Source of the DNA: Acidobacteriota bacterium | GTDB lineage: Bacteria; Acidobacteriota; Vicinamibacteria; Marinacidobacterales; Marinacidobacteraceae | DNA length: 64,000 nucleotides | Assembly: GCA_022820545.1 (NCBI GenBank) | Contig: JAJEFG010000084.1 | Span: 1 to 64,000 of the forward strand | Direction: 5' to 3' | Part shown: in pieces, positions 4,105-26,383 of the stretch | Layout of the letters: each line of letters opens with the position of its first letter | How positions within the stretch are numbered: position 1 is the first letter of the stretch | The notes under the pieces: generated by a model | Databases searched by the model: none | What the model was told of the DNA's origin: nothing | The model's input: only the letters and a program-made list of their open reading frames with translations | Made by a program: the position numbers and the translations under genes

Positions 4105-5439
4105 CTATCCTGGCGGCGGGTGCGCGAGTTTGCCGACGAAGAGGATCGCGCCCGTGAGGCGCTCCCGGATGAAGAAGAGGAAGGGACGGTCGGCCCGTAC
4201 GGTGACGGGGGGAGGGGGCGCCGAGGTCACACCGATGACCACCGTTGCGGCCGCCGCTTCGGTGCCCTCTTCCGTCACCTCGACCAGCGCCTTCTGCAGG
4301 ACGCTGGAGATCGACAAGTCAACGGGTGAGACTCTCGTGAGGTCCGCCTTCCCGGGGCTGAATGCGTCCACCATCCCGAGCGCGGCAAGGTCGTCCTTCA
4401 ACTCGCGCTCGTACTCCATCCGGAAGCGCGGCAGGAAAAGTTCCACCTCGGTCTCCTCGAAGCCCTCGGCGACGTCTCTCCACGCGGCCGCATCGAGCGA
4501 CATGAGCACGTCGTCAGCTCTCATGCCATCTCCCGGAACGAGCACGGTCATCGAAAACGCGCCGCCGCCGTACGGCAGGTCCACGGCCTGGAACCGGCTG
4601 GTCTCCAGATACGGGAAGTCCCTCTGAATCGTCATGAGCGGGACCGTCCCGGGGGATCGGTCTTCGGGGTAGAAGGGCTCCGTTCGGGTGTCGTCCGGAT
4701 CGAACTCGAAGGTCCAGGGGGCGTTGAAGTAGATCGCGTTGATCACAAACATGAGGACCCCAGGGGGAATCGGGTCGGGAACGATCTCCTCGATGTGGCC
4801 GCCCGTCGCGGACCGGACCCACTCGTTGATGCGTCCGGACGCTGACGGGCCGGCGAAATCGAGTTCCGTCGCTTCGGCGCCGAAGAACTCGCGCAGCACG
4901 TCCACGAATTCCGCTCGCAGCGGAAACCCCTGCCGCGTCCACACGGAGTTGCCGATCGCGGTCTCGACGGCGGGATCGAGTTCGGTGAGGACCCGGATCA
5001 GCGACCGATAACCGGCGTTGATCTCCTCCTCGGTGAGTCCGCCGAAGCCCAGTGCTTCGCGCATCTGGTTCCAGGTCTCGCCTCCCGCCCCGTTCATGGT
5101 CATCCCGAGCGCCACGGAAGCGGAGAACGGGGAAAGGAAGAGGTTCTCCCCGGGGCGGCTGGCCTCTCGAAGCAGGTCGAAGGCGAACCGGTTGCCCGCG
5201 CCGATGACCTCGACCTCCGCCGCGTTCAGGGCGCGCGGGAGTTCCGGGGCCGGCGGCGGGTTACCGGGCGGAACGCCGGGAATCGGGGGAAGGCCCGGGA
5301 CCGGAACGGTGGATGGTCCGCCGCACCCGGCAGCGGCGAGCAGGAGAACGGCTCCCGCGCCGGGCAGCCAGCGGCGGCGGGCGACACCGCGGACGCGGTT
5401 GCCCGAATCCGGACGGCGCTCGCTCTGGTGGTTGTCCAT
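4105..5439 (-). CDS. Lipoprotein serpin (serine protease inhibitor)
   Basis: This 444-residue protein starts with a basic stretch, a hydrophobic helix and a lipobox ending AAGC, so Cys39 is probably lipidated. A Pro-rich linker follows, then a complete serpin fold. Hallmarks are NLFLSPFSASVALGM, FVINAIYFNAPW, the inhibitory hinge EEGTEAAAAT (residues 390-399) and RPFLFFIRERLTGAILFVGK at the end. The small-residue hinge is the signature of serpins that insert the reactive loop and trap proteases. Alignment to alpha-1-antitrypsin puts the scissile bond near Ser406-Ala407. The loop is two residues longer than in that protein, so the exact bond is uncertain. Small residues there suggest elastase- or subtilisin-like targets. 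It presumably protects the envelope from external proteases. It appears monocistronic. Confidence 0.93.
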   Translation of the reverse strand: MDNHQSERRPDSGNRVRGVARRRWLPGAGAVLLLAAAGCGGPSTVPVPGLPPIPGVPPGNPPPAPELPRALNAAEVEVIGAGNRFAFDLLREASRPGENLFLSPFSASVALGMTMNGAGGETWNQMREALGFGGLTEEEINAGYRSLIRVLTELDPAVETAIGNSVWTRQGFPLRAEFVDVLREFFGAEATELDFAGPSASGRINEWVRSATGGHIEEIVPDPIPPGVLMFVINAIYFNAPWTFEFDPDDTRTEPFYPEDRSPGTVPLMTIQRDFPYLETSRFQAVDLPYGGGAFSMTVLVPGDGMRADDVLMSLDAAAWRDVAEGFEETEVELFLPRFRMEYERELKDDLAALGMVDAFSPGKADLTRVSPVDLSISSVLQKALVEVTEEGTEAAAATVVIGVTSAPPPPVTVRADRPFLFFIRERLTGAILFVGKLAHPPPG

Positions 5440-7026: not shown

Positions 7027-7671
7027 GTGCCCGACGCGAACAAACCGGCAGGTCCGGCGCGTCTTGCTTCCGAAGAGCAAGACCATGCGCCGGTTCACCC
7101 AGCCCGAGACGAGCGCGCCCGGGAGGATGCGGAAGAGCGCCGGCTGCTTCGGAGGTTCCGTGATCAGGGAGACCTTCGCGCCTTCGATGAACTCGTGCGC
7201 CGCACCGAGATCCGGGTTCGCGCCGTCGCCCTCGCGATCCTCCGGGACCGTTCCGATGCCGAAGACGCTGCCCAGGAGGCCTACCTGCGCGCTTTCCGCC
7301 GGGCATCCGGCTACCGCGGCGAGGGACCCGTGGGGGCATGGCTCTGCCGGATCGCGGTGCGCGCCGCCCATGACGCGCTCCGCCGGGCGGGCCGGCAGCG
7401 GCGGCTCCTCGAAGTGGCGAGCCCGCCCGGAGACCCCGCGGAGGGGGCCGGAAGCGCCGAGCCGGAGGAAGACCTCCGCCGCCGCACCGAAGTGGAATCG
7501 GCGCTCCGGCGGCTGCCCGGCGACGAGCGGGAAGCGCTCGTGCTGAAGGAGGTGGCCGGGATGACCTACCGCGAGATCTCCGAGTCGTGCGGGGTTCCAC
7601 TCGGGACGGTGCAGTCCCGGATCCACCGGGCGCGGCAGCGGCTGGCCGAGGCCCTGCGTCCACAGAAGTGA
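7027..7671 (+). CDS. ECF-type RNA polymerase sigma factor
   Basis: This 214-residue sigma-70 family protein has only regions 2 and 4. Region 2 covers about residues 45-110 (FDELVRRTEIRVRAVALAILRD, EDAAQEAYLRAFRR). Region 4 covers about 155-210 (LRRLPGDEREALVLKEVAGMTYREIS, then GVPLGTVQSRIHRARQRL). GTG 7027 was chosen because it is the in-frame start just after the -10-like TACACT and gives a typical length. The frame stays open far upstream but runs antisense to the PLP gene. An anti-sigma factor follows after 7 bp, and the rest of the operon is a Spy-like protein and an RND pump. It probably controls an envelope-stress or efflux response. Confidence 0.9.
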   Translation: MPDANKPAGPARLASEEQDHAPVHPARDERAREDAEERRLLRRFRDQGDLRAFDELVRRTEIRVRAVALAILRDRSDAEDAAQEAYLRAFRRASGYRGEGPVGAWLCRIAVRAAHDALRRAGRQRRLLEVASPPGDPAEGAGSAEPEEDLRRRTEVESALRRLPGDEREALVLKEVAGMTYREISESCGVPLGTVQSRIHRARQRLAEALRPQK

Positions 7672-7678
7672 GGAAGGC

Positions 7679-8191
7679 ATGAAGGACCAGGAACTTCTTT
7701 CCGCGTATCGGGACGGCGAACTCCCGCCGGAGCGGGTGCGCGAGGTCGAGGAACGCCTCGCTGCCGATCCGCGGTTCCGGGAGGAGCAGTTGCGCCTGCA
7801 GCAGGTGGCGGCGATCGTCCGGGTCGAGTGCGAGCCCGATCCCGGATTCCTGGTCCGCCACCGGGAGCGCCGCGAGGACCTGTCACCCGTGCGGCTCTGG
7901 ACCTGGCGCCAACTGGGATACCGGATGTCGGCGGCAGCCGCCGCGTTGCTGATGGCCGCCGGTCTCAGCGTCTGGCAGGCCGGGCAGCCGGAGGCGGAAC
8001 CGCTGGCAACCGCCGTTCCCGTGGCGGAGGAGCTGGACCTGCTCGCCTTCGAGGGAGAGATCCTGGCCGCTTCGGACCCGGAGACCGGCTTCGAGGCCGA
8101 GTTCCAGACTCTGGCGGCAAGCGATTCGGCGGCTGAGCCGGTACTGGTGATTGCGCTGGGCGGGGGATTCCTGCCCGCGGGGGAACGCTGA
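7679..8191 (+). CDS. Anti-sigma factor, single-pass membrane protein
   Basis: The protein has 170 residues. Its N terminus (MKDQELLSAYRDGELPPERVREVEERLAADP) is the classic anti-sigma helix hairpin that binds ECF sigma factors. One hydrophobic segment at about residues 82-100 (MSAAAAALLMAAGLSVW) would place the C-terminal acidic domain in the periplasm. The HxxxCxxC zinc motif of ZAS-type anti-sigma factors is absent. The gene follows the sigma gene by 7 bp and its stop overlaps the next start by one base (TGATG), so the genes are translated together. It presumably holds the sigma factor until an envelope signal arrives. Confidence 0.85.
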   Translation: MKDQELLSAYRDGELPPERVREVEERLAADPRFREEQLRLQQVAAIVRVECEPDPGFLVRHRERREDLSPVRLWTWRQLGYRMSAAAAALLMAAGLSVWQAGQPEAEPLATAVPVAEELDLLAFEGEILAASDPETGFEAEFQTLAASDSAAEPVLVIALGGGFLPAGER

Positions 8192-8754
8192 TGCCCGAGG
8201 AAAACGTGACTGCGCCGGACGCGGCCAACCGCCGCTGTAAGCGGCTGATGCCGCTCCTGCTGATCCTCGCCGGATTCGGCGCCGGGGTGTTGGCGAGCGC
8301 CGTACCGCGCCTGATGCACCGGGGCGGGGAGCACCGCGTGAGCCGTGGCGACGACGACGGCCGGCGGCCGGTGCGGCGCGGCGGCGAGCGCACGGACCGC
8401 GGCCGTTCCCGTGGACGCGACGCGCGGGACGGCGAGACGCGAGCGCGGAGGTTCCGCGCGCAGCTCGTCGACCGGCTCGAACTCGACGACGCGCAGCAGG
8501 CGCAGATGGACGCGTTCATCGAGGCCAACCGCGCCGAGGCGAGCGCCTTCTGGGACGACACCTACGCGCGTTACCGCGAACTGCGGCTGAAGTTCCGCGA
8601 GCAGATCAGCGAGATCCTCAACGAGTCCCAGCGTGAGACCTTCGACGCCCTGATGCGCGAGCGGGGACGGAACGATCGGGACCGAGATTCCGTAGAGAAC
8701 GACCCCGAGGAGGGTTCCCCCGAAGGAGTGCCCCGGGGAGGGATGCGACGATGA
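8191..8754 (+). CDS. Spy/CpxP-like periplasmic protein with N-terminal membrane anchor
   Basis: The protein has 187 residues. A hydrophobic segment at about 20-40 (MPLLLILAGFGAGVLASAV) acts as signal or anchor. A long Arg/Asp/Gly-rich charged stretch follows. The rest is helical: FRAQLVDRLELDDAQQAQMDAFIEANRAEA and then FREQISEILNESQRETFDALM. This matches the heavy-metal resistance/Spy family (L-x-L-[ST]-x-x-Q-x...), periplasmic chaperone-like sensors. Start and stop overlap the neighbours by 1 and 4 bp. The low-complexity charged stretch is unusual for the family. Confidence 0.7.
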   Translation: MPEENVTAPDAANRRCKRLMPLLLILAGFGAGVLASAVPRLMHRGGEHRVSRGDDDGRRPVRRGGERTDRGRSRGRDARDGETRARRFRAQLVDRLELDDAQQAQMDAFIEANRAEASAFWDDTYARYRELRLKFREQISEILNESQRETFDALMRERGRNDRDRDSVENDPEEGSPEGVPRGGMRR

Positions 8755-11700
8755 GCGGACTGGAAGGACACCGTCACTCACACAGCCAGGAGGCGGTCCC
8801 GGAGCGGGGCAGCTTCCTGGCCCGCTTCGCGGTGGACCGGCGGGTGACGATCAGCATGATCGCGATCGGGCTGGTCGTGCTCGGCTACGTCTCGCTGACC
8901 CGCCTCCCCCTCGAATTCCTCCCCTCCTTCGGCGCCAACAGCCTCTGGGTGAGCGTGTCGTACGAGTCCTCGTCCCCCGAGGAAACCGAACGCCTCATCG
9001 TCCGCCCGCTGGAAGAGAGCCTGGGGACGATCCCCGGGATCACGGTCCTCACCGCCACCGCGAACGCCGACAGCGGCAACGTCAGCGTGGAGTTCGACGA
9101 GGGCGTGGACATGGACCTCATGGTGGTTGAGGCCCGGGACCGGGTGGACCGCATCCGCCACCTCCTTCCGGACGACATCGACCGGATCAACATCCGGCGG
9201 TTCCAGAGCACCGACATCCCCATCCTCCAGTTCCACCTGGGGGCGCCCTGGGAGCGGGAGCGCCTCTTCGACTTCGCCGAGGACATCGTGCAGCCGCGGC
9301 TCGAGCGCCTCGAGGGGGTGGCCAGCGTGGACGTCCGGGGGGTTCGCCGGCGGGAACTGCGGGTCAGCATGGACCAGGCGCGAATGGCGGCGCTGAACGT
9401 GGACGTCCGGGACATCTCCACGGTTCTGTCCCAGAACAACGTCAACGTTTCCGGCGGCACCATCACCGACGGCTCGCGGAAGCTGATCGTCCGCACCGTC
9501 GGCGAGTTCCAGCGGCCGGAGGACATCCGGGAAACACCCATCGGCGACACCGGACTGCGGTTGAGCGACGTCGCCGACGTCACCTACGAGTTCCCCACGC
9601 AGACCTCCTTCGACTACCTGAACGGCGAGGAAGCGGTCACCTTCCGGATCTACAAGGCGTCCAACGCAAACGTGCTCGAGGTCGCCGACGGGGTCAAGGC
9701 GGAGATGCAGGACATCGCCGCCTTTCCCCGTTATGCCGACATCGAGATGCGCTACATCCAGGATTCGTCGCTGGATGTCCGCGGGGGCCTGTCGCAGCTC
9801 GCTCTGGCGGGGCTCTTCGGCGGGGGGCTCGCGATGCTCATCCTGCTGCTCTTCCTGCAGAAGGTGCGGACCACCCTGCTGGTCGCGGTGGCGATCCCGC
9901 TCTCGATCATCACGACGTTCGTGATCATGTACCTGGGCCGGCAAGCCGGCCTGGTGGACACCACCCTCAACGTGATCAGCCTCTTCGGGCTGATGGTGGC
10001 CGTCGGCATGCTCGCCGATCCGGCGATCGTGGTCATCGACTCGATCTCGCGCCACTTCACCGAGTACAAGGAAGACTCCCGCACCGCCGCGATCCACGGC
10101 GCGTCCGCGGTGACCATGCCGATCATCGCCGGCGCGGCGACCACCATGTGCGTGTTCGTGCCGCTCGTCTTCCTCGGCGCGACGATGGGCGGCTTCTTCC
10201 GGATCTTCACCGACTTCGGGTTCACCCTGAGCGTGGTGATCGTCGCCTCCCTGCTCGTCGCGCTGACCGTGGTGCCGATGATGGCCGGGGTCGTGCTTCG
10301 CAACGAGCGGCGTGTCTATTCGCGCACGATGCGCCTTCTCGGCAGGCTCCACGGGAAGGTCATCCGGCGCACCCTCCACCATCGGTTCGTCTCGCTGATG
10401 GTGGCCATCGGCCTGCTGGGCGTGGCCTGGTTCCTCTACCAGAACATCGAGCGCTCCAGCTTCGACAGCACGGTGGAGCGCGAGGTGACCATCAACGTGG
10501 ACGTGCCCCGGGCCTATTCGATCGACGACACCCGGGAGGTGATGGAGTCGGTGGCGGCGCTCATCGAGGAGCGGCGCGAGGAACTCGAAATCGCCGATGT
10601 GATCTACGAGTTCCGCCGGGGCGGGGGCCGTTCCCGCCGCGGCGGCTACGGCGGGGGCGGCCGGCGCTTCGAGCTCTACCTCGTGGACGAGTCGGAGTCC
10701 GAGCGGAGCGTTCAGGAGATCACCGACGAAATCCGGGGGATGCTGCCGACGATCGCCGGAGTGAACTTCCGGATCGCCGAGAGCCGCGGACGCGGACCCG
10801 GACGGGGCGGTGGAATCCGGCTGGATCTGAAGGGCGACGACATGGACGTCCTCGAACTGGTTTCGGGCCGGGTGGTGGAACGACTCGCCGCCCTTCCCTG
10901 GATCCGGGACGTGGACACCTCGCTCGAGAGCGGCACCGAGGAACTCCACGTCACGCCGCAGGCGGAGCGGGCGCTCGCCTCCGGGGCCGGGACCTTCGCG
11001 GTGGCCCAGACCGTCCGCAGCGCGCTGACCACCCGGCCGGTGGGCACGATCGAGAGCGACCAGCGCGAGGTGGACATCGTGGTCCAGTACCCCGAGGAGC
11101 AGCGCGAACGCCTCGACCACGTCCGGCGCATGCCGGTCTTCGTGGGCGATGCCCGGATCCCGGTGGGCGCGATGGCGGACTTCGAGACGGTGAGCGGGCC
11201 CCGCAGCATCGAGCGGGAGGATCGCCGTCCCAAGCTCACCATCAGCGCGAACACCACGGTCCCGGGAGCTTCGTTCCGGCTCATGGGCCAGGTTCAGGAA
11301 CAGCTCGCGGACATCGCCCTGCCGCCCGGCTACGAATGGAGCTTCGACCGCTGGTCCCGCATGGGCCAGACGGACTTCTCCGCGGCGGGGTTCGCCTTCG
11401 CGTTCGCGCTGCTGCTGATCTACCTGATCATGGTGGCGCTCTTCGAGAGCTTCCTCCATCCGGCGGTGATCATGTTCTCGATCCCGTTCTCGTTCATCGG
11501 GGTGGCGGTGACGCTCAAGCTCACCGGGCAGACGCTCGGGAACACCGCCATGCTGGGGCTGGTACTGCTCGCGGGGATCGTGGTGAACAACGCCATCGTC
11601 CTGATCGCGCACGTCAACTCCCTGCGCAAACAGGGGATGTCCCGGGACGAGGCGCTCGTTCTGGGAAGCGAGCACCGGCTTCGCCCGGTCATCATGACGG

Positions 11701-11990
11701 CGCTGACCACCTTCTGCGGACTCATGCCGCTCGCGGCGCCCTACTTCCTGCCGGAACTCTTCGGTTCGGTGGACGGCCGCGCCGGACAGTGGGCGCCCAT
11801 CGGCCTCGTGCTGGCCGGCGGCCTGCCGACCTCGACCCTGCTGACGCTCCTCCTGGTCCCGACGATCTACGCGGTGACCGACGATCTGAAGCGTCTTGTC
11901 TGGCCCTACACCACGGCCCCACAAAAGCCGGCGGTCAGCGAAGCCGCAGCCCCCGCCGGTGCGCCGGCCCTGAATCCAGTAACGCAATGA
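8751..11990 (+). CDS. RND efflux pump permease (AcrB/HAE1-type), first of two
   Basis: The 1079 residues show the full RND plan: first membrane helix at about 25-45, a porter domain (SSPEETERLIVRPLEESLGTIPG), helices 2-6 from about 345 (GLFGGGLAMLILLLFLQKVRTTLLVAVAIPLSI), the charged helix 4 segment GLMVAVGMLADPAIVVIDSI, a second porter domain, and helices 8-12 (ALFESFLHPAVIMFSIPFSFIG). In helix 4 the usual GxxVDDAIV-like pair reads ADPAIV, with one acidic residue instead of two. That may change proton coupling. The start overlaps the previous stop (ATGA), and its own stop overlaps the adaptor start (ATGA). The substrate is unknown. Confidence 0.93.
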   Translation: MSGLEGHRHSHSQEAVPERGSFLARFAVDRRVTISMIAIGLVVLGYVSLTRLPLEFLPSFGANSLWVSVSYESSSPEETERLIVRPLEESLGTIPGITVLTATANADSGNVSVEFDEGVDMDLMVVEARDRVDRIRHLLPDDIDRINIRRFQSTDIPILQFHLGAPWERERLFDFAEDIVQPRLERLEGVASVDVRGVRRRELRVSMDQARMAALNVDVRDISTVLSQNNVNVSGGTITDGSRKLIVRTVGEFQRPEDIRETPIGDTGLRLSDVADVTYEFPTQTSFDYLNGEEAVTFRIYKASNANVLEVADGVKAEMQDIAAFPRYADIEMRYIQDSSLDVRGGLSQLALAGLFGGGLAMLILLLFLQKVRTTLLVAVAIPLSIITTFVIMYLGRQAGLVDTTLNVISLFGLMVAVGMLADPAIVVIDSISRHFTEYKEDSRTAAIHGASAVTMPIIAGAATTMCVFVPLVFLGATMGGFFRIFTDFGFTLSVVIVASLLVALTVVPMMAGVVLRNERRVYSRTMRLLGRLHGKVIRRTLHHRFVSLMVAIGLLGVAWFLYQNIERSSFDSTVEREVTINVDVPRAYSIDDTREVMESVAALIEERREELEIADVIYEFRRGGGRSRRGGYGGGGRRFELYLVDESESERSVQEITDEIRGMLPTIAGVNFRIAESRGRGPGRGGGIRLDLKGDDMDVLELVSGRVVERLAALPWIRDVDTSLESGTEELHVTPQAERALASGAGTFAVAQTVRSALTTRPVGTIESDQREVDIVVQYPEEQRERLDHVRRMPVFVGDARIPVGAMADFETVSGPRSIEREDRRPKLTISANTTVPGASFRLMGQVQEQLADIALPPGYEWSFDRWSRMGQTDFSAAGFAFAFALLLIYLIMVALFESFLHPAVIMFSIPFSFIGVAVTLKLTGQTLGNTAMLGLVLLAGIVVNNAIVLIAHVNSLRKQGMSRDEALVLGSEHRLRPVIMTALTTFCGLMPLAAPYFLPELFGSVDGRAGQWAPIGLVLAGGLPTSTLLTLLLVPTIYAVTDDLKRLVWPYTTAPQKPAVSEAAAPAGAPALNPVTQ

Positions 11991-13825
11991 GGGAATCCGT
12001 GCCCCAGATCAAGACAACTTCTCGCGGGGGCCGGAAGGTCCCTGGGCGACACCTGCTCCAGGCCCTGCTGCTGGCCGGGCTCGCCGCCGCGGTGGCGTGC
12101 GGGTCCGGAGAAGAGGCGGCCGGCCCGGGCGCCGGGGGCGGTCCCGGCGGCCGGCCGGGCGGCGGCCCTCCGGGCGGATTCGGCGGCGGAAGCGCCCCCG
12201 TAACGGCCGTTCCGGTCGAGGTCGTGGAGATCCTCCCGGGTCCCATCTCGGCGTTCATCGAGACCAACGGAACGCTCGAAGCCGAGCGCGAGGTGGACAT
12301 CGTGGCCCGCACCGGTGGACCGCTGGTGGCCCTCAACACCGAGGAGGGAGTCCAGGTGAAGGCCGGCGACCTGCTCGCGCAGATCGACGAGCTGGAGGCC
12401 CGCGCGCAGGTCGAGATCGCCCGGGTGGCGCTCCAGGACGCCGAAACCGTCTACAACCGGGCCAAGGCCTCGTTCGAGAACTCCGTCGTGAGCCAGGAGG
12501 TATACGACACGGCCCTTTCGTCGCTGGAATCGGCGAAGGCGCAGCTCACGGGGAACGAGATCCAGCTCGGCTATACCCGCATCACCGCTCCCTTCGACGG
12601 CCTGATCATCCAGCGCGCGGTGAAGTTCGGGGAAACGGTGACCGCGGGACAGCAGCTCTTCCGGATCTCCGACTTCGATCCGCTGCTCTGCGTGATCGGA
12701 GTGCCGGAACGGGATCTCGCTCGCCTCTCCGTCGGCCAGCCGGCGATCCTGCAGGTGGAGGCGTTTCCCGGGGAACAGTTCCAGGGTCGCGTGCTGCGGA
12801 TCAGCCCCGTGGTGGACGCCGCGACGGGAACGATCCGGGTCACGCTCGAGGTGAACCGGCAGGGACGGCTCAGCCCCGGGATGTTCGCCGGCGTGCGGCT
12901 GGTCACCGATGTGCGCCAGGAAGCGCTCATCATGCCGAAACGGGCGCTCTCGCTGGAGAGCCTCGCCGACTCGGTCTTCGTCGTCGAGGACGGGGTCGCC
13001 TACCGGCGGAACATCACGCTCGGCTACGAGGAGGACGACCGGGTCGAGGTCACGAGCGGCCTCGCTCGCGGTGACCGGGTCATCGTGGTCGGCCAGGACG
13101 GCTTGACCGACGCGACCCCGGTCCAGATCCTCGCCGGACCGGGCGCTGAGGAGAGGCCGGCCCGGACCGCGGGTGGCGCTCCCGGCGGCGGCGTCGAGAT
13201 GACCGAAGAACGCCGGGCCGCGATGCGCGAGCGGATGCGCGCCCGCGGCATGACCGACGAGGCGATCGAGGAACGGCTCGCGGCGATGGCCGCGGGGGGT
13301 CCGCCGGGAGGACGGGGCCGGCCGGGTGCGGAAAGCGGCTCTCCGGGAGGCCGTCCGGCAACCGGGGGACCTCCGGGAGCGGGCGCGCGCCGAGCGGCTC
13401 CCGCAGCGGATTCGGCGGCGCCCGCTCCGCCGGCGCGGGAAGCGCCGGTCGCCGCGACGCCGGCCGTGCTCGAACCGGCGGCGGAGCCCGCCCCGGACGC
13501 GGCCTCCCGGCCTCCGCGCGCCGGATCCGCGCGGACGGCAGAGCCCGCCAACCGGCCGCCGGACGACGAGCCCGGCGCCTTCGAGGACCTTCCGGCCGAG
13601 ACCCGGGAAGCGATCAGGGGCCGCCTCCGCTCGATGGGGTTGACCGACGACCAGATCGAGGAGCGGGTCCGGCGCGGTTGGGGAGCGACTCCGGATGAGG
13701 GGGAGCCGCGCGGCGAAACCCCCACTCCCGAGCAACTCGACGCGCTCCGCGAGCGCCTGCGCGAGCGGGGCATGACGGAAGAGCAGATCGAGGAGATCAT
13801 CGCCCGCCGCCGCCGGCCGGAGTAA
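11987..13825 (+). CDS. RND pump periplasmic adaptor (membrane fusion protein) with repeat-bearing C-terminal extension
   Basis: The protein has 612 residues; ordinary adaptors have about 350-420. It starts with a signal and probable lipobox (LAAAVAC), then a Gly/Pro-rich linker. The adaptor core covers about residues 65-390: lipoyl halves (VDIVARTGGPLVALNTEEGVQVKAGDLLAQID and ITAPFDGLIIQRAVKFGETV) around a helical hairpin, a beta-barrel and a membrane-proximal domain. From about 405 the chain is Pro/Ala/Gly-rich and carries three copies of a helix-turn unit, consensus (L/M)RxR(L/M)RxxG(M/L)T(D/E)(D/E)xIEE, near 405-438, 537-567 and 581-612. I do not recognise this tail in known adaptors. It resembles the SHOCT motif in pattern only. 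The ATG overlaps the permease stop. Confidence 0.9.
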   Translation: MRESVPQIKTTSRGGRKVPGRHLLQALLLAGLAAAVACGSGEEAAGPGAGGGPGGRPGGGPPGGFGGGSAPVTAVPVEVVEILPGPISAFIETNGTLEAEREVDIVARTGGPLVALNTEEGVQVKAGDLLAQIDELEARAQVEIARVALQDAETVYNRAKASFENSVVSQEVYDTALSSLESAKAQLTGNEIQLGYTRITAPFDGLIIQRAVKFGETVTAGQQLFRISDFDPLLCVIGVPERDLARLSVGQPAILQVEAFPGEQFQGRVLRISPVVDAATGTIRVTLEVNRQGRLSPGMFAGVRLVTDVRQEALIMPKRALSLESLADSVFVVEDGVAYRRNITLGYEEDDRVEVTSGLARGDRVIVVGQDGLTDATPVQILAGPGAEERPARTAGGAPGGGVEMTEERRAAMRERMRARGMTDEAIEERLAAMAAGGPPGGRGRPGAESGSPGGRPATGGPPGAGARRAAPAADSAAPAPPAREAPVAATPAVLEPAAEPAPDAASRPPRAGSARTAEPANRPPDDEPGAFEDLPAETREAIRGRLRSMGLTDDQIEERVRRGWGATPDEGEPRGETPTPEQLDALRERLRERGMTEEQIEEIIARRRRPE

Positions 13826-13863
13826 GCCGCCAGGCCACACGCCGTCACGGATAGCCCCGACCG

Positions 13864-16800
13864 ATGCGCATCGTCGACTTCTCCATCCGGCGCCCGGTCA
13901 CCGTCGTGGTGCTGTTCATCGCGATCGTGGTGTTCGGGGTGGTCGGCTTCGACCGCCTGTCCGTGGACCTCCTGCCGGACATCACCTATCCGTCGCTGAA
14001 CGTCCGCACCGACTACGAGGGCGCCGCCCCGAGCGAGATCGAGAACCTGATCACCCGTCCCATCGAGAACGCGGTCGGGGTGGTCAACAACGTGGTACGG
14101 GTCGTCTCCTCCTCCCGTCCCGATCTCAGCGAAGTCACGCTCGAGTTCGGGTGGGGAACCGACATGGATATGGCGGCGCTCGACGTGCGCGAACGTCTCG
14201 ACGTGGTGCGCCTGCCGCTCGACGCGCCGCGTCCCACCCTGCTGCGGTTCGATCCCTCGCTGGACCCGATCCTCCGCTTCGGCCTCACCGGCAACGAGGA
14301 CCTCGTCCGGCTGCGGCTGATCGCGGAACAGGAAATCCAGCGCAACCTCGAGCGCGTCGAGGGCGTGGCGGCGGTGCTCGTGAGCGGCGGCCTGGAGGAG
14401 GAGATCCACGTCGAGATCGACGAGCGGAAGGTGGCCAACCTGGGCCTCTCCGTTCCCGGGGTGGTGAACCGGCTCGGCCAGGAGAACGTGAACCTCACCG
14501 CCGGACGCCTGCTCGACGGCGGCACCGAGTACCTGGTGCGCACCATCAACGAGTTCGAGCGTCCCGAGGACATGCGGAACATCGTGGTGGACGCCGAGCG
14601 CACCGTGATCCGGCTGGAAGACGTGGCCACCATCCGCCGCGGCTCGAAGGAGCGGGAAGTCATCACCCGCATCGACGGACGGGAGTCCATCGAGATCGCC
14701 GTTTACAAGGAAGGCGGCACGAACACGGTCACGGTGGCCGACGAGGTGCTGACGCGGGTCGAGGGACTCGAGGAGCGGCTCGACCAGGTGGGCGAGGACC
14801 TCGCGCTCACCCTGGTGACCGACCAGGCGCGCTACATCCGCCAGTCGGTGTCGGAGGTGCTGCAGACGGCGGTGATGGGGGGCATCCTCGCGATCTTCGT
14901 CCTCGTCCTCTTCCTCGGGGAACTCCGTTCCACGCTGATCATCGGGATCTCCATCCCCATTTCGGTTATCGGGACCTTCTTCCTGATGTACGTGTCGGGC
15001 GTCTCGCTCAACATCATGTCGCTCGGCGGCATCACCCTCGGGATCGGCCTCCTCGTCGACAACTACATCGTGGTGCTCGAGGCGATCAAGCGAAAACGGC
15101 AGGAGGGGATGGGCCTCGTGGAGGCCTCGCAGGCCGGCACCGGCGAGGTCGGCCAGGCGGTGGTCGCGAGCACCATGACGACGGTCTGCGTGTTCGTGCC
15201 GATCGTCTTCGTCGAGGGCATCGCGGGACAGTTGTTCGGCGATCAGGCCCTCACCGTCACCTTCTCGCTCGCGGTTTCGCTGCTGGTCGCGCTCACCCTG
15301 ATCCCGATGCTCGCCTCGCGGGAGTTCCGCCCGGTGGCGGCGTCCGAGCAGGCGTCGTTCCGGACGAAGGCCGGCCAGCTCTTCGGCAAGGTGGTGACCG
15401 CCGTCGGCCGGGGAGTCCTGTGGGCGGTCTTCGGGGTCATCCGGGGCGTCGATCTCGTCATCCAGGGGATCCTCTGGCTGCCGAGCCGGCTCTTCCGCCT
15501 CGTCTACGACGGCATCGTGCGCGCGTATCCGCCGACCCTGAACGCGGCGTTGAAACACCCCTTCCGCGTGGGAACCCTGGCCGCCGGGCTGTTCGCCGGG
15601 GCGCTCTACACCTTCCCCACACTCGGCACGGAACTCGTCCCCGAACTCATCCAGGGCGAGTTCTACGTGGACACCGAGCTGCCGGCAGGCACCCACCTGG
15701 ATCTCAACTCCCGCCGCATCGGGCGTCTCGAGGAAGCGGCCGCTCAGATTCCCGGAGTCCGGACCGTGTACGCGACGGTGGGGACCAGCAGCCAGCAGGG
15801 CGGGGCGGCGGGCGAGCTGCGCGAGAACATCGGCCAGCTCACCGTGGTGCTGGACCCGCCGGTGGACCGCGCCCGCGAAGATGCCGCGATGGCGGAACTG
15901 CGTCCGCAACTCGAGGGAGACGAGGATCTCCTCTACATCTTCGGCCGCCCGTCCTACTTCAGTTTCCGGACTCCGGTGGAACTGGAGATCCGGGGCTTCA
16001 ACCTCACCATGCTCGAGCGGACCGCCGACGAGGCGGTGGCCGGCCTGCGGGAGATTCCCGGGCTCGTGGACGTGAAGTCATCCACCGAGGGCGGGAATCC
16101 GGAGCTCCAGGTCCGGTTCCACCGCGACCGGGTGGCGGCGCTCGGCTACAACGTGAACCAGCTCGGGACGCTCATCCGGTCCAAGGTGCTCGGCGACGTG
16201 GCGACCGACATCCAGCGGGAGGACCGGTCCATCGACATCCGGCTCCGCACCGACGAGTCCTTCCGGGACAGCGTCGCGGACCTGCGCAACCTGAACATCT
16301 CCGACGGCGGCGCCGCCACGATTCCGCTCTCCAGCGTGGCCGACGTCGACGAGGTGACCGGCCCCGCCGAAATCCGCCGCGCCGACGGCGAGCGGGTCGC
16401 CACCATCACCGCGAACATCGTCGGCCGGGACCTCGGGAGCGTGGCCACCGACATCGAGGCGCTGATGGCCGGCATCTCGATGCCCGCCAGTTTCAGTTGG
16501 CGGCTCGGGGGTCAGCAGGAGGAGATGGAGACCTCCTTCGCGAGCATGCAGTTCGCGATCCTGCTCGCGGTGTTCATGGTCTACCTCGTGATGGCCTCGC
16601 AGTTCGAGTCGCTGCTCCATCCCTTCGTGATCCTCTTCTCGGTCCCGTTCTCCCTGGTCGGGGTCATCTTCGCCCTCAAGCTCTTCTCGGTGACGGTGAG
16701 CGTGGTGGTGCTGATCGGGGTGATCATGCTGGCGGGCATCGTGGTGAACAACGCCATCCTGCTGCTCGACACCACGAACCGCCTCCGGCGCGGAGGCATG

Positions 16801-17022
16801 GCAAAGCTGGATGCGCTGCGGCAGGCGGGCAAGGTCCGCCTCCGCCCGATCCTGATGACCACCTCGACCACGGTCCTGGGCCTGCTCCCCATGGCGGTGG
16901 GCCTCGGAGAGGGCAGCGAGCTGCGGACCCCCATGGCGATCGCGGTCATCGGCGGGCTGATCCTCTCCACCGCGCTCACCCTGCTCATCATCCCGACCGT
17001 CTACCGCGTCATCGGCAGGTAA
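13864..17022 (+). CDS. RND efflux pump permease, second of two
   Basis: This is a 1052-residue RND permease: helix 1 (RRPVTVVVLFIAIVVFGVVGF), porter domain with YEGAAPSEIENLITRPIENAVG, helices 2-6 from about 335 with GGITLGIGLLVDNYIVVLEAI in helix 4, a second porter domain, and C-terminal helices including VVNNAILLLDTTNRLRRGGM. Unlike the first permease, helix 4 has the common V-D-N pattern. An inserted hydrophobic segment near 500-545 (VLWAVFGVIRGVDLVIQGILWLPS) precedes the second half. It lies 38 bp after the adaptor gene. Two different permeases with one adaptor suggest a heteromeric pump (compare MdtBC) or two pumps sharing an adaptor. No TolC-like gene is in the window. Confidence 0.93.
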   Translation: MRIVDFSIRRPVTVVVLFIAIVVFGVVGFDRLSVDLLPDITYPSLNVRTDYEGAAPSEIENLITRPIENAVGVVNNVVRVVSSSRPDLSEVTLEFGWGTDMDMAALDVRERLDVVRLPLDAPRPTLLRFDPSLDPILRFGLTGNEDLVRLRLIAEQEIQRNLERVEGVAAVLVSGGLEEEIHVEIDERKVANLGLSVPGVVNRLGQENVNLTAGRLLDGGTEYLVRTINEFERPEDMRNIVVDAERTVIRLEDVATIRRGSKEREVITRIDGRESIEIAVYKEGGTNTVTVADEVLTRVEGLEERLDQVGEDLALTLVTDQARYIRQSVSEVLQTAVMGGILAIFVLVLFLGELRSTLIIGISIPISVIGTFFLMYVSGVSLNIMSLGGITLGIGLLVDNYIVVLEAIKRKRQEGMGLVEASQAGTGEVGQAVVASTMTTVCVFVPIVFVEGIAGQLFGDQALTVTFSLAVSLLVALTLIPMLASREFRPVAASEQASFRTKAGQLFGKVVTAVGRGVLWAVFGVIRGVDLVIQGILWLPSRLFRLVYDGIVRAYPPTLNAALKHPFRVGTLAAGLFAGALYTFPTLGTELVPELIQGEFYVDTELPAGTHLDLNSRRIGRLEEAAAQIPGVRTVYATVGTSSQQGGAAGELRENIGQLTVVLDPPVDRAREDAAMAELRPQLEGDEDLLYIFGRPSYFSFRTPVELEIRGFNLTMLERTADEAVAGLREIPGLVDVKSSTEGGNPELQVRFHRDRVAALGYNVNQLGTLIRSKVLGDVATDIQREDRSIDIRLRTDESFRDSVADLRNLNISDGGAATIPLSSVADVDEVTGPAEIRRADGERVATITANIVGRDLGSVATDIEALMAGISMPASFSWRLGGQQEEMETSFASMQFAILLAVFMVYLVMASQFESLLHPFVILFSVPFSLVGVIFALKLFSVTVSVVVLIGVIMLAGIVVNNAILLLDTTNRLRRGGMAKLDALRQAGKVRLRPILMTTSTTVLGLLPMAVGLGEGSELRTPMAIAVIGGLILSTALTLLIIPTVYRVIGR

Positions 17023-20469: not shown

Positions 20470-22416
20470 CTAGCGGGGTCCGGACTTTCCGGAATCGGAG
20501 GGCTTTTCCTCGGTGTCCGTCGCGGTGGGCGCCCAGGGGTCGTCCAAGCCCGCGCCGGGGCAGAAGTCGCCGGTGTCCAGGAAGTGCGTGTGGAGGCACT
20601 CGAGCGTCGAGCCGAGGCTCTGCAGCAACTCCACCGTCTCCGGGTACGGGACGCGGGTGAAGAACCCGGCCCGGCCTCCCCGGGCCATGTCGGCGGTGGA
20701 CTGTCCGAGGCGGGTGATCGCGGTGACGTCCCCGCCCCGCGACACGAGGTACTCGATCATCTCGTTGTCGCCCCGTGACGCCGCGTAGTGCATCGGGGTG
20801 TAGAGCCAGGAGTCCCGCTGGTTTACGTCCGCGCCCAGCTCCTCGATCAGGTACTTCACGGCGGGAATGAACTGGTCAGGCTCGTTCCGAACGCTGAACG
20901 CGCCCAGTCCCAGGTATCCGCCCCCCGCCGCGGCATGGATCGGCCAGGCGTTCGGCGCCCCCTCGGGGATCCAGGGCAGCGCGGAGTCCTCCTGCTGGCG
21001 GCCGTCCTGCTGCCGGCGCTCCCGCATCCCGACCTCGGGCCAGCGGGTGGGGATGTGGGGGTCCGCTCCGTGCGCGACGAGCAGCCGCATCGCCTCGAGA
21101 TCCTGGGCGAAGGCGGCCCGCCAGAACGGGGTCGCTCCGGTGAGGTCGATCCCCATCTTGGTGAGACCGTATTCCCAGTACCAGAGGTGCGTGTTGAGGC
21201 GGGGGTTGGGGGCGGCCCCGGCTTCGAGCAGCGCGCGGAGCACGTCCAGGTATTCGGCTTCCTGCAGGTCCTGCGCACGCGGCTGCGGATAGTTGGACTT
21301 CGGCGCCCACTGGGTCTGGAGGACGGCGAAGAGCGGCGTGACGCCGTCCGTCGAGGTGCCGAGGTCCGGATTCGCCCCGCGCTCGATGAGGACGAGCGCG
21401 AGGTCGAACTGGCCGTTGAGCGTCGCCATCAGGAGTGGGCTCGTGCCGTCCGCGCTCACCTGATCCAGGTCCGCACCGCCGTCGAGGAGGGCCGTCGCCG
21501 CCTCGATATGGCCCTCGCGGGCGGCGTGCAGCAGCGCGGTCAGCGCGCCCGTCCGTCCGACGAGCACTTCGCGGTAGGGCGGCCGCACGAGGTCGGGACC
21601 GCCCGGGTAGTCGGGCCCCACGCGGCCGAGCGAGTGCGGGCTTACCTCGCCGACGTCGTAGCCGGAGCGGAGGAAGTCGCGCTGCGCACGGATGGCCGCC
21701 TGGACCTGGGCCGGGCTGGGCTCGCCCTTCGATTCGGCGTCGGGGTCCACCTCCGGCCCGTACATTCCCATCCTTTGCGGCGGCGCGCCGATCAGGTCGC
21801 GGAAGCGGCGGTTGGCCTCCCGGTCCAGGGCCAGCGTGGGCAGGACGTCAACCGCCGCGGTCGCAATCCCGGGGTCGGCGCCGGCGGCAAGCAAGGCGGT
21901 TATGGCGTCGGCGCGATTCGCGGCCGCCGCGAAGAACAGGGGCGTCTGCCCCGCCGACCCCTCCCGGGCGTCCGGGTCCGCGCCGTGGTCGAGCAGCGCG
22001 GCCACGGCCGGCCCGCCACCGGTGGCGCCGGCGGCGAGGTGCAGCGCGGTCACGCCGCTGTTCGTCGTCCGGGCGTTCGGGTCCGCCCCGGCCTTGAGCA
22101 GGCTGAGCACGACCGCGCCATGGCCGGCCCGTGCGGCGACGTGGAGCGGGGTATAGCCGCCGATGCGCGTGCCGGCGTCGACCGCGGCGCCCGCCGCGAC
22201 GAGCGCCTCGGCCACCGCCTGGTGCCCGCCCTCGGCGGCGAGGTGCAGCGCGGTCAACCCGTCGCCGCGCGCGGCGTTCACGTCCGCCCCGTCCTCGAGG
22301 AGGGTCCGTACCACCTCGAGCTGCCCGTCGCGGGCGGCCGCGAGCAGCCGCTCGTCCGCGCTCGCCGCCACGGGGAGGATTGCCGCTACCAGCAGCGACA
22401 CCACGGCGCCCCTCAT
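20470..22416 (-). CDS. Exported ankyrin-repeat protein
   Basis: The protein has 648 residues. A signal peptide (MRGAVVSLLVAAILPVAASA) is followed by ankyrin repeats in two blocks, about 22-185 (GLTALHLAAEGGHQAVAEALVAAGA, YTPLHVAARAGHGAVVLSLLKAGADPNA) and 285-600 (GALTALLHAAREGHIEAATALLDGGADL, LYTPMHYAASRGDNEMIEYLVSRGGDV). A non-repeat segment separates them. The C terminus has a short Cys-containing stretch (ECLHTHFLDTGDFCPGAG). The ATG at 22416 overlaps the stop of the DUF1552 gene (ATGA), which fixes the start. The frame stays open upstream but runs within that gene. Ankyrin proteins bind other proteins, so this may be a periplasmic partner of the two genes before it. Confidence 0.88.
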   Translation of the reverse strand: MRGAVVSLLVAAILPVAASADERLLAAARDGQLEVVRTLLEDGADVNAARGDGLTALHLAAEGGHQAVAEALVAAGAAVDAGTRIGGYTPLHVAARAGHGAVVLSLLKAGADPNARTTNSGVTALHLAAGATGGGPAVAALLDHGADPDAREGSAGQTPLFFAAAANRADAITALLAAGADPGIATAAVDVLPTLALDREANRRFRDLIGAPPQRMGMYGPEVDPDAESKGEPSPAQVQAAIRAQRDFLRSGYDVGEVSPHSLGRVGPDYPGGPDLVRPPYREVLVGRTGALTALLHAAREGHIEAATALLDGGADLDQVSADGTSPLLMATLNGQFDLALVLIERGANPDLGTSTDGVTPLFAVLQTQWAPKSNYPQPRAQDLQEAEYLDVLRALLEAGAAPNPRLNTHLWYWEYGLTKMGIDLTGATPFWRAAFAQDLEAMRLLVAHGADPHIPTRWPEVGMRERRQQDGRQQEDSALPWIPEGAPNAWPIHAAAGGGYLGLGAFSVRNEPDQFIPAVKYLIEELGADVNQRDSWLYTPMHYAASRGDNEMIEYLVSRGGDVTAITRLGQSTADMARGGRAGFFTRVPYPETVELLQSLGSTLECLHTHFLDTGDFCPGAGLDDPWAPTATDTEEKPSDSGKSGPR

Positions 22417-23837
22417 GCGGAGACGCTCCCGGCGGTGGCCGCCTCGTCCGGAAGGTCGAGCGGGAACACGCCGTCGCTGTCGCCGAAGGTGTCCATCTCC
22501 GGGTGGCCGATCTTCCGCATCAGGCTCACGAACGCGTTCGCCATCGGCGTCCCCTCCGGCGCCCGCAGATGGAGACCGCCCTCCAGGGTTCCGTTCGCCC
22601 GGCCCAGCAGGAGCAGCGGCGCGCGCCGGTGGTTGTGAAGGTTCCCGTCCGCCATCGCCGAGCCCCAGACGATCGCCGTCTTGTCGAGGAGGGAGGCGTC
22701 CCCGTCCATCGTGTCGCGCATCTTCTCGAGGAAGTAGGCGAGCTGGCCCAGCCGGTAGGTGTTGATCCGGTTGAAGTCCATGATGTCCTCGGGGACGTTG
22801 CCGTGGTGCGAGGCTCCGTGGACGGACTTCGTCGTCCCGCTCTCGGGGAAGGTCCGGTTCGACTGGTCGAAGCCCGTCTTGAAGGTGATGACGCGCGTCA
22901 GATCCGTCTGCAGCGCGAGCAGTTGCAGGTCGAACATCAACTGCATGTGTTCCACGAAGGAATCCGGGACTCCGGAGGGGGCCTCCGGCATCTCGCGTTC
23001 CTCCCCGCTCGTATTGCGCGCCTCGACGAGCTCGATCCTCCGTTCGATCTCGCGGATGTGCTCGACGTATTCGTCCAGCGCGACCCGGTCCGCGGCGCCC
23101 AGGGTTCCCTTGAGACGGGCGACCTCGGTCGTGATCCAGTCGATCATGCTGCGGTCCGTGCGGCGCCGCGCCGCCCGGTCCGCGGCCGTGTCCCCGGCGC
23201 CGAACAGCCGCTCGAACACGACGCGCGGCTCGCGGATCGCCGGAAGCGGCTGGCTGGGCGTGGCCCACGCGAGCGAGGTCGTGTAGGCGCAGTGGTAGTT
23301 GTAGGCGCAGCCGCCGCCGCGATCGATGCCCTCGATGCAGAGTTCGAGCGAGGGGAGCACCGTCTCGCGCCCGAAGCGCTGCGCGTGCAACTGGTCGAGC
23401 GAAGTGCCGATGAAGATGTCGGACCCCTGGGTCTGCTTCGGGTGGGCCTGGGTCAGGAACACCGCCGTCGTCCGGTCGTGGTCGCCGCCGATCTCCTCCG
23501 CCCGGTGCGCTTCCGCCGACCGGCAGTCGGTGTTGCTGACGATCGTCAGGTACTCGCGGAACGACTCCAGCGGTTTGAGCTGGCTGTCCGCGACCAGTTC
23601 GAAGCCGCGTCCGGTCGCCGCCGGCGCGAACAGGCGGCGGCCGTCGCCCCAGTCGCTCGAGCCGGCGACCCCCATGGACTCCTCGATGGCGACCAGCCGC
23701 GTGAATTCCGCGGCCTTGTTCGGGGCGGCCCACAGCCCGGCGGGAGTCATCGCGTCGAGCAGGGGCAGCGCCACGCTGGCGCCCGCACCCCGCAGGAAGG
23801 TGCGGCGCGGGAGGTGTTTCCGGGTGATGAAGTTCAT
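22413..23837 (-). CDS. DUF1552 domain protein with Tat signal
   Basis: The protein has 474 residues. Its N terminus (RKHLPRRTFLRGAGASVALPLLDAM) is a twin-arginine signal. The body matches DUF1552, a family related in fold to sulfatase/alkaline phosphatase-like DUF1501 proteins. Typical pieces are LESFREYLTIVSNTDCR, GDHDRTTAVFLTQAHPKQTQGSDI, LPSLELCIEG and VWGSAMADGNLHNHRRAPLLLLG. Biochemical function is not established. The gene is coupled at both ends by ATGA overlaps, with the DUF1592 cytochrome upstream and the ankyrin gene downstream. DUF1552 and DUF1592 genes are paired across Planctomycetes, Verrucomicrobia and Acidobacteria. Confidence 0.92.
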   Translation of the reverse strand: MNFITRKHLPRRTFLRGAGASVALPLLDAMTPAGLWAAPNKAAEFTRLVAIEESMGVAGSSDWGDGRRLFAPAATGRGFELVADSQLKPLESFREYLTIVSNTDCRSAEAHRAEEIGGDHDRTTAVFLTQAHPKQTQGSDIFIGTSLDQLHAQRFGRETVLPSLELCIEGIDRGGGCAYNYHCAYTTSLAWATPSQPLPAIREPRVVFERLFGAGDTAADRAARRRTDRSMIDWITTEVARLKGTLGAADRVALDEYVEHIREIERRIELVEARNTSGEEREMPEAPSGVPDSFVEHMQLMFDLQLLALQTDLTRVITFKTGFDQSNRTFPESGTTKSVHGASHHGNVPEDIMDFNRINTYRLGQLAYFLEKMRDTMDGDASLLDKTAIVWGSAMADGNLHNHRRAPLLLLGRANGTLEGGLHLRAPEGTPMANAFVSLMRKIGHPEMDTFGDSDGVFPLDLPDEAATAGSVSA

Positions 23838-26329
23838 GAGCCCTCTCCGCTTCCCATCGGAGCTGCTGATTCTGCCAGATCGTCCGCCGCGGGCGCGGGA
23901 CGCGCCATGCGGAACGCGTCGCTGTTCACGACGCCGAGGACGAACGAGGACATGCGGTAGCCGCCCGCCTCCGCTCCGCGCGCGATGGCGCGGATCGCGG
24001 GCCCGTCGAAGTACTCGGCCCGGCGCCCGGTCGCGTAAGCGAGCAGGTGTTCCGTGAAATTCCGGACCAGGGGGATCGGCCGCTTCATGAGAACGCGGAC
24101 GAGTTCGGCAGGCGTGCTTACTTCGGTGCCGTCGTAGAACGTTCCCCGGGTGTCGAGCGCGACGCCGTTCTCACGCATCCGCACCCGCCCGGTCACGTCG
24201 TAGTTGTCGAGCGCGAGTCCGATCGGGTCCATGAACCGGTGGCACGCGCGGCAGGTGGGATTCGCCACGTGCATCTCGAGCCGCTCGCGCGTGGTGAGCC
24301 GCCGCCCGCGGCGGGCCGCCGCGGTGTCCTCGAAGGCGGGGATGTCGGGCGGCGGGGGCGGAGGCGGCGTGCCCATCAGCACCTCCATGACCCACTTCCC
24401 GCGCAGGACCGGCGACGTGCGCGCGGACATCGAGGTGAGGAGCAGCACGCTTCCGTGCCCCAGCACGCCGCGCCGGCTGTCGTCCGGATAGCTCACCCGC
24501 CGGAACTCGGGCCCCGAGACTCCCGGAATCCCGTAGTGCGCCGCGAGGCGCTCGTTCAGGAAGGTGTAGTCCGCCGTGAAGAGATCGAGCAGGCTGCCGT
24601 CCCCGCGCACGAGGTCGTCGAAGAAGAGCTGCGTCTCACGGACCAGGTCCTCGCGGAGCTGGCCGGTGAAGTCCGGGTAGAGATACGGCTCGGGCTGGTT
24701 GTCCTCCGCGTCCTGGAGCCGCAGCCACTGCGAGGCGAAGCGCGTCGAGAGCGCCTCGGCCCGCGGGTCCGCCAGCATCCGGCGCACCTGCGACTCCAGG
24801 ACCGCCGGGTCCGAGAGCCGTCCCTCCGCGGCGAGCGCCACCAGTTCGTCGTCCGGGCTGGCCGCCCAGAGGAAGAACGACAGCCGCGACGCGAGGTCCA
24901 CGTCCGCGATCCGGTAGCTCTCCCCGGGCGGAACCTCCGGCGGCGCCCGCTCGAGTCGGAAGATGAAGGACGGGCTGGCGAGGATCGACTGGAGCGCGGT
25001 CCGAATGCCGATCTCGAACCCGTCCTCCGCGGCGGCGCGTTCATAGAAGGCCATCGGTCCGGCGAGATCCTCATCCGTGACGGGACGCCGGTACGCCTCG
25101 CGCGCGAGCCGGGTCACGATCGACTTCGCACACGCCCGGGACTCCTCGGAAACGTCCGCTGCCGTCGCTCCGTCCTCCGGATAGCAGTCGAAGATCTTGC
25201 GGCGGCTCGCCGTCTCCGAGAGCCCGGCACTGCGGCCCGGGCCGGTGATCATCAGCTCGCTCAGGTGGGGCAGCGCGGTGATCCCGTAGTTCGCCCACGC
25301 CTGGGAGTCCTCGCCTCCGACGAAGGACCAGCCCGGCGTCTTCAGGGGATCCTCGTACGGCCCCTCGATCGTACGGACGAAGGCCGCCGCGACCTGGCGC
25401 TGCCCGGCCCTCACGAAGATCGGTTCGGTGCGGATCGGCACCGTCGAGCGGCCGCCGTGCTCGAGGCCGAGGAGGGCGACGCCCTCCCCGTCGATGGAGA
25501 TGTCCACGTCCTGGAAGCCGGTCCCCCGGCCGAAGAGCGTCTCGATCGAGATCACGTACTCCCCGTCCACCGGGAAGTCGTGGGTGATGACCATCCCGCC
25601 GCGCGTCCCGTACGGCGTGCCCTCGAGGTGATCCCAGGCGTGCTGCGAGACGTCGATGGGATTCGTGTACTTCGCGGTCCGGGAGAGCGCGTCCGGGTTG
25701 CCGACGGCGATCCGGCTGACTTCCGTGGCGGCCCGCAGGTAGGCCTCGAGAAGGGTCGTCGACAGACCCTGCGCGTCCGACATGTTGTCGAAGGCGCCGA
25801 GGTAGGTGTCCGCCGGCAGCCAGCGGCCGGCCTCGATTTCGAGATCGAGGAGATCGCGGATGACGCGCTCGTACTCGGCCCGGTTCAGCCGCTGGAAGCG
25901 CCGTGCGCCGGGGTTCCGGGAGCGGGCGGCCTCGCCGTCGACCACGGTCTCGAGCGTCTCGGCCAGGGCGAGCAGCGTTTCGGGCGGCGGGCGGCGCTGG
26001 CCCGGCGGCGGCATCATTCCGGCCCGCAGCTTCCGGATCATCTTTTCGGCGGTCTCCGCCTGTTCGTGCGCCGTGTCCACGGCGAACTCCCGCAGCGTGA
26101 GGTTTCCGGTCCGGAGACGCTCGTTGTGGCAGACGACGCAGTAGCGCTGCACCACGCCGGTGAGTTCCGCAGAGTTTGCAAGAGCGGCCTCAGGCTCGGG
26201 GGAGGGCGCGGTAGGGGACGCACCGTCCTCCGGGGGTTGCCCGGTCAGGGCGAACCACAAGAAGAGAACCGCGCCCGCGCTCATCGCCTTAACCCACGGA
26301 AGATACCTGAATCGACCGCCGCTTCCCAT
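23834..26329 (-). CDS. Planctomycete-type cytochrome c-like protein, DUF1587/DUF1592/DUF1588/DUF1585
   Basis: The protein has 831 residues. ATG 26329 was chosen because it gives a signal peptide with a basic start (MGSGGRFRYLPWVKA) and one hydrophobic helix. TTG 26350 and ATG 26284 are alternatives. A first heme-type motif CVVCH stands near residue 60 and a second, CRACH, near 695. Between them run DUF1587 (FQRLNRAEYERVIRDLLDL), a beta-rich segment, DUF1595/DUF1592 (RPVTDEDL, IADVDLASRLSFFLWAA, ASQWLRLQ) and DUF1588 (YTFLNERLAAHYGIPG, TSMSARTSPVLRGKWV). DUF1585 ends the chain (FTEHLLAYATGRRAEYFD). It is likely a periplasmic redox protein and its substrate is unknown. It heads the three-gene operon and is divergent from kbl. 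Confidence 0.9.
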   Translation of the reverse strand: MGSGGRFRYLPWVKAMSAGAVLFLWFALTGQPPEDGASPTAPSPEPEAALANSAELTGVVQRYCVVCHNERLRTGNLTLREFAVDTAHEQAETAEKMIRKLRAGMMPPPGQRRPPPETLLALAETLETVVDGEAARSRNPGARRFQRLNRAEYERVIRDLLDLEIEAGRWLPADTYLGAFDNMSDAQGLSTTLLEAYLRAATEVSRIAVGNPDALSRTAKYTNPIDVSQHAWDHLEGTPYGTRGGMVITHDFPVDGEYVISIETLFGRGTGFQDVDISIDGEGVALLGLEHGGRSTVPIRTEPIFVRAGQRQVAAAFVRTIEGPYEDPLKTPGWSFVGGEDSQAWANYGITALPHLSELMITGPGRSAGLSETASRRKIFDCYPEDGATAADVSEESRACAKSIVTRLAREAYRRPVTDEDLAGPMAFYERAAAEDGFEIGIRTALQSILASPSFIFRLERAPPEVPPGESYRIADVDLASRLSFFLWAASPDDELVALAAEGRLSDPAVLESQVRRMLADPRAEALSTRFASQWLRLQDAEDNQPEPYLYPDFTGQLREDLVRETQLFFDDLVRGDGSLLDLFTADYTFLNERLAAHYGIPGVSGPEFRRVSYPDDSRRGVLGHGSVLLLTSMSARTSPVLRGKWVMEVLMGTPPPPPPPDIPAFEDTAAARRGRRLTTRERLEMHVANPTCRACHRFMDPIGLALDNYDVTGRVRMRENGVALDTRGTFYDGTEVSTPAELVRVLMKRPIPLVRNFTEHLLAYATGRRAEYFDGPAIRAIARGAEAGGYRMSSFVLGVVNSDAFRMARPAPAADDLAESAAPMGSGEGS

Positions 26330-26383
26330 CCGCAGCCGTAGCCTCGCCAACCGATACAGTCTCGCTCCCCAGGAGAACCCCCA

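Follow-up and report, generated by a model that had tools for sequence, protein, structure and literature searches.

The stretch of DNA analysed here (the window) comprises 64,000 nucleotides from an Acidobacteriota bacterium and contains an RND pump operon whose periplasmic adaptor ends in a long, repeat-bearing tail (Table 1). The genes follow one another in the order sigma factor, zf-HC2-like protein, LTXXQ protein, RND permease 1, adaptor, RND permease 2. The adaptor reading frame opens with an ATG at 11987 and closes with a stop codon at 13823-13825. The TIGR01730 profile scores 262.5 bits on its product (curated cut-off 94.9), and since the match stops at residue 381, the proposal of the sequence-only reading that an RND adaptor core ends before residue 400 holds. 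The core has an alpha-hairpin of its own at about residues 126-200 (AlphaFold2 helices 126-164 and 170-200). The N-terminus is lipoprotein-like, with a Cys behind a hydrophobic stretch that recurs in the orthologs inspected by eye. This secreted-looking, lipoprotein-like start, together with the adaptor fold that precedes the tail, suggests that the tail is probably located in the periplasm, as had been proposed.

The adaptor gene is flanked on both sides by ACR_tran genes, and the order RND1-adaptor-RND2 is retained in every fetched distant acidobacteriotal locus that spans the region. A single adaptor gene between two different RND permease genes (8751-17022) is a conserved arrangement across Acidobacteriota. 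Compared with RND periplasmic adaptors of the MdtA/MexA type (TIGR01730), the window's protein is alike in its core domains, its lipoprotein-like N-terminus and its operon with RND permeases. It differs in carrying ~210 additional residues, which hold as many as three hairpin units, and in being the one adaptor encoded between two permease genes. Among the few neighbouring genes that were scanned, none was recognised as an outer-membrane factor. RND permease 1 contains, at residues ~619-640, a Gly/Arg/Ser-rich periplasmic loop (RRGGGRSRRGGYGGGGRR), which by eye seems to occupy the position of the switch loop in AcrB; a G/R/S-rich loop is conserved in 10 of 10 orthologs across the phylum.

Table 1. 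Coordinates of the pump genes and of the parts of the adaptor within the window.
Feature	Position	Strand	Adaptor residues	Basis or remark
ECF-type sigma factor, start not fixed	7099..7671	+		Sigma70_r2, Sigma70_r4_2
zf-HC2-like putative anti-sigma factor	7679..8191	+		21.8 bits against a cut-off of 22.2; retained in orthologs
Spy/CpxP-like LTXXQ protein	8191..8754	+		encoded with the pump in the window's family and order; not seen next to some tail-bearing pumps
RND permease 1 (ACR_tran)	8751..11990	+		directly upstream of adaptor; order conserved across phylum
RND periplasmic adaptor with C-terminal repeat tail	11987..13825	+		612 aa translation; TIGR01730, HlyD_D23
Adaptor core	12215..13129	+	77-381	TIGR01730
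Tail unit 1, predicted helical hairpin	13199..13300	+	405-438	motif, AlphaFold2, unit HMM
Linker 1, Pro/Ala/Gly-rich, length-variable, predicted disordered	13301..13588	+	439-534	
Tail unit 2, predicted helical hairpin, conserved RGW at end	13589..13690	+	535-568	
Linker 2	13691..13720	+	569-578	
Tail unit 3, predicted helical hairpin	13721..13819	+	579-611	
RND permease 2 (ACR_tran)	13864..17022	+		directly downstream of adaptor; conserved

Repeat units of the adaptor tail

The three repeat units first noticed by eye in the adaptor tail are real. An HMM built solely from units of other bacterial families recovers exactly three sites in the window, with domain i-Evalues of 9e-10, 3e-5 and 2e-12 (19-42 bits). 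A search of all six frames yielded no further site in the window, the rest lying at i-Evalue >=0.4 and <=5.9 bits; the top score against 2000 shuffled tails was 6.2 bits, and the core motif of the unit was found in 0 of 20000 tail shuffles. Good matches in the bacterium's own genome are confined to the same three sites. The consensus given in the sequence-only reading, which begins with Leu or Met, is exact in units 1 and 3 but not in unit 2, which starts with Ile (IRGRLRSMGLTDDQIEE). Over 54 nt of DNA, copy 1 shares 65% identity with copy 2 and 80% with copy 3. The linkers are Pro/Ala/Gly-rich, as described (A, P and G together make up 90 of the 208 tail residues), and the tail contains neither Cys nor His.

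Among 24 units from seven families, Gly18 and Ile24 never vary, Arg or Lys occupies positions 11 and 15 throughout, position 14 is always Leu or Met and position 21 always Asp or Glu; position 20 is Ser or Thr in 23 of the 24. Each of these units has about seven basic and about seven acidic residues, giving a net charge of -2 to +2. In a helical-moment test, helix 1 showed no amphipathicity in excess of column-permuted versions, and a clear docking face is therefore not visible.

In the AlphaFold2 models, each unit forms a pair of helices, 12-13 residues long, on either side of a G-[ML]-[ST] turn (residues 407-419 and 424-435, 537-549 and 554-565, 581-593 and 598-609), with pLDDT mostly 75-85 and with linkers near 30. 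As no more than ten close sequences were usable, the full-length model is poor, core included (mean pLDDT 44.5). Modelling units 2 and 3 alone gives the same two hairpins, without a fixed mutual orientation (mean pLDDT 74, pTM 0.36). The helix-turn-helix character attributed to the units is consistent with both models, in which each unit is a predicted helical hairpin within a disordered chain. Foldseek searches with the model of units 2 and 3 returned nothing at E<=0.001, only generic helices, and the unit profile found no informative relative in the PDB, the top match being a designed helical repeat (E 0.004) and the rest weaker.

Conservation and copy number in Acidobacteriota

The units are not peculiar to one genome. 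All three are kept in the five MAGs of related Acidobacteriota whose adaptor tail is complete (L010, L011, L013, L014, L016), and three are also present in two other genera of the window's family (G008 and G009). Two genomes of the same genus (G004 and G007) have the adaptor split at contig ends inside linker 1 (L028/L034 and L029/L035), the pieces jointly holding three units; GC-rich, low-complexity linkers may break assemblies and so hide tails. One further genome of that genus, 66% complete, gave no match. It had been suggested that the tail would be absent from close orthologs if it were a local low-complexity expansion. Every close ortholog with a complete adaptor has three units, and the tail is therefore not such an expansion.

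Between pairs of close orthologs, the pooled units are 59-98% identical, free of indels and evolve with omega of about 0.07-0.40, whereas the linkers show 2-35 gapped columns per pair, 40-79% identity and omega of 0.25-0.48. Since omega of single short units is noisy and the linkers are somewhat constrained too, the contrast between units and linkers comes mainly from indels and identity. On these comparisons, the units are under purifying selection and the linkers less constrained. Hairpins that are selected while their spacers drift mark the tail as a real and apparently undescribed working part.

The HMM search with the unit, which the sequence-only reading had called for, was run with a profile of 14 units against 297 Acidobacteriota genomes and recovered the adaptor tails. 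Two other matches were inspected, on RecX- and CoaE-like proteins, and reflect a common local motif only; weak matches also occur in G062 and G175. A profile of seven adaptor cores, run against 294 Acidobacteriota genomes with presence set at E<=1e-90, detected the adaptor in 18, and 17 of the 18 have at least one unit. One of these links is inferred across contigs (G261), as the core sits at the end of one contig and the two units at the end of another. The exception is a distant relative of 387 residues (G032) that is tail-less, and such a core can therefore exist without the tail. Judged by these profile matches, the unit is a conserved feature of one adaptor subfamily across Acidobacteriota and, within the genomes searched, is restricted to it. 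A scan of 84,980 species with patterns from the window's adaptor protein found close relatives solely in Acidobacteriota, and a tblastn search of plasmids with units 2 and 3 gave no match.

Copy number varies between one (families f2, f27, f52 and f75), two (G076 and G261) and three (the window's family). G010, from the window's order, has one unit, which was missed in a BLAST-type search; unit 3 of the window is the counterpart of the single terminal unit in the other family of the order. In a midpoint-rooted tree of the cores, whose root falls beside the tail-less relative and several of whose forks are only moderately supported, the one-copy lineages are deepest, the three-copy family forms one clade (100/99) and the two two-copy genomes are placed elsewhere, among one-copy relatives. 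From this placement, a single C-terminal unit was probably ancestral, with separate gains to two and to three and at least three increases in copy number. In G261 (loci L052 and L059), the two units are nearly identical to each other (DPAQVERVKEFMRQRGLSD) and lie together at one contig end, which suggests a recent internal duplication.

Relation to known domains

The unit had been likened to SHOCT (PF09851), a domain of two helices that is short, usually sits at the C-terminus and strongly conserves one Gly and one Glu (PMC3581485). The two share a length of ~30 residues, two helices (predicted here), one conserved Gly and Glu and, for unit 3, a position near the C-terminus. Unit 3 would fit a short two-helix domain placed within 50 residues of the C-terminus; unit 1 is ~175 residues away from it. 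Kinship is not borne out by profile searches: SHOCT is absent from the Pfam matches of the adaptor at E<=1, from those of unit 3 at E<=10, and from 17 whole genomes (the bacterium's own and 16 relatives, tail bearers included). Moreover, the tail unit is repeated and found on one protein subfamily, whereas SHOCT occurs in many architectures (PMC3581485). Oligomerisation by SHOCT was itself tested and found unsupported (PMC3581485).

Extensions of adaptors are already known: a C-terminal CusF-like domain on SilB of Cupriavidus metallidurans and other terminal extensions have been reviewed (PMC4446572). SilB resembles the window's adaptor in having a module appended behind the core, but the SilB module is a CusF-like metal-binding beta-barrel (PMC4446572), whereas the units here are small, lack Cys and His and are predicted to form helical hairpins. 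An extension of the CusF metallochaperone type was considered for the tail and rejected: it has no Pfam match, the residues Cys and His are missing and the ordered parts are predicted to be helical. No comparable tail was found in the literature searched, a partial selection that included the reviews PMC4446572 and PMC13328181, so that this is weak evidence of novelty.

Possible roles of the tail

Descriptions of RND adaptors usually centre on the structured domains of the core. The tail found here, conserved, predicted to be disordered and furnished with repeats, suggests that an adaptor may have another means of recruiting or retaining its partners. The reading we favour, with somewhat less than even confidence, is that the tail is a set of tethered hairpins that dock on a component of their own pump; both this function and the partner are inferred. 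The tail would extend into the periplasm as a flexible arm attached where the adaptor core ends, and each 30-residue unit would fold, alone or upon binding, into a two-helix hairpin built around the conserved G-[ML]-[ST]-[DE]-x-x-I turn. Such hairpins might dock on neighbouring adaptor protomers, on the porter domains of both RND permeases or on the outer-membrane channel, and so help to assemble or hold the pump, while repetition of the module would raise avidity and reach. A bolder formulation, which we regard as doubtful, is that the unit is an undescribed hairpin docking module defining an RND adaptor subfamily, and that the tails form a multivalent, disordered brush regulating assembly of a one-adaptor, two-permease pump. 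If six adaptors surround the trimeric pump, this brush would comprise up to 18 hairpins. The natural series of one to three copies is ready material for asking whether copy number matters.

It is unlikely that the hairpins instead bind the co-encoded Spy/CpxP-like LTXXQ protein and thereby couple the pump, via the adjacent sigma/anti-sigma genes, to the sensing of envelope stress. The sigma factor, anti-sigma factor, LTXXQ, RND1, adaptor and RND2 genes do cluster in the window and in orthologs of the same family, anti-sigma-like and LTXXQ genes are also present in the order, and two loci of family f52 (L063 and L067) encode small secreted-looking proteins at the place of the LTXXQ gene, which Pfam searches do not identify as LTXXQ. 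However, no LTXXQ candidate was seen within 5 kb upstream of RND1 (linked genes only) in L061, L062 and L064, whose adaptors have two, one and one units. The Spy-like protein, put forward in the sequence-only reading as a binding partner besides the outer-membrane factor and peptidoglycan, is therefore not an obligate one in the operon. Its gene adjoins the pump genes in the window's family and in its order, yet its candidacy as the specific partner is weakened by these three tail-bearing families. In the loci compared, the order RND1-adaptor-RND2 is constant and the LTXXQ gene is not, so what consistently accompanies the tail is the pump rather than the Spy-like protein. Nor did profile comparisons relate the tail to that protein: the LTXXQ/Spy profile (PF07813) is absent from the adaptor's Pfam matches at E<=1, and hhalign of the units against the window's LTXXQ protein gave a probability of 5%.

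Improbable, and more so than Spy binding, is that the tail fixes the pump to peptidoglycan or some other polymer of the envelope, or assists in positioning it in the periplasm. Its long disordered reach, its highly charged helices and the expectation that the protein faces the periplasm would suit such a role, but no known peptidoglycan-binding family matches, and the near-zero net charge of the units argues mildly against a purely electrostatic polymer ligand.

We give even less credence to the unit being a transplanted or duplicated piece of HlyD_D4 (PF16572), the long alpha-hairpin domain of CusB, acting as an extra hairpin that contacts neighbouring hairpins or the channel. HlyD_D4 is the top Pfam match and is hit by 19 of 21 units, both are found on RND adaptors and they share a local helix-turn-helix sequence pattern; a common origin is possible. 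Yet the best scores (26.4-26.5 bits) are at the cut-off of 26.4, and the match covers positions 25-53 of 55 only, a half-domain. Nothing exceeded the cut-off in whole-genome searches of ten genomes, no solved CusB chain appeared up to E=10 when the unit profile was searched against the PDB, and RecX, cwf21 and other unrelated hairpins match the units too. In addition, HlyD_D4 lies inside the core of CusB, whereas the units are repeated, C-terminal to the core and separate from its hairpin.

That the tail is a neutral low-complexity expansion without function is very improbable: low-complexity, variable linkers and a copy number that differs among families might suggest it, but it is already contradicted because the units are conserved in families whose cores share no more than about 50-60% identity with that of the window, and among close orthologs are under purifying selection without indels. 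Even if its function proved trivial, the tail would remain a clear case of a short repeat kept by selection within low-complexity sequence.

Elsewhere in the window, the minus strand encodes a serpin (PF00079, 350 bits; 4108-5439) with a lipoprotein-like N-terminus, here in a bacterium, and a pair of genes of the DUF1552 (HXXSHH) and DUF1592 types (22416-26350).
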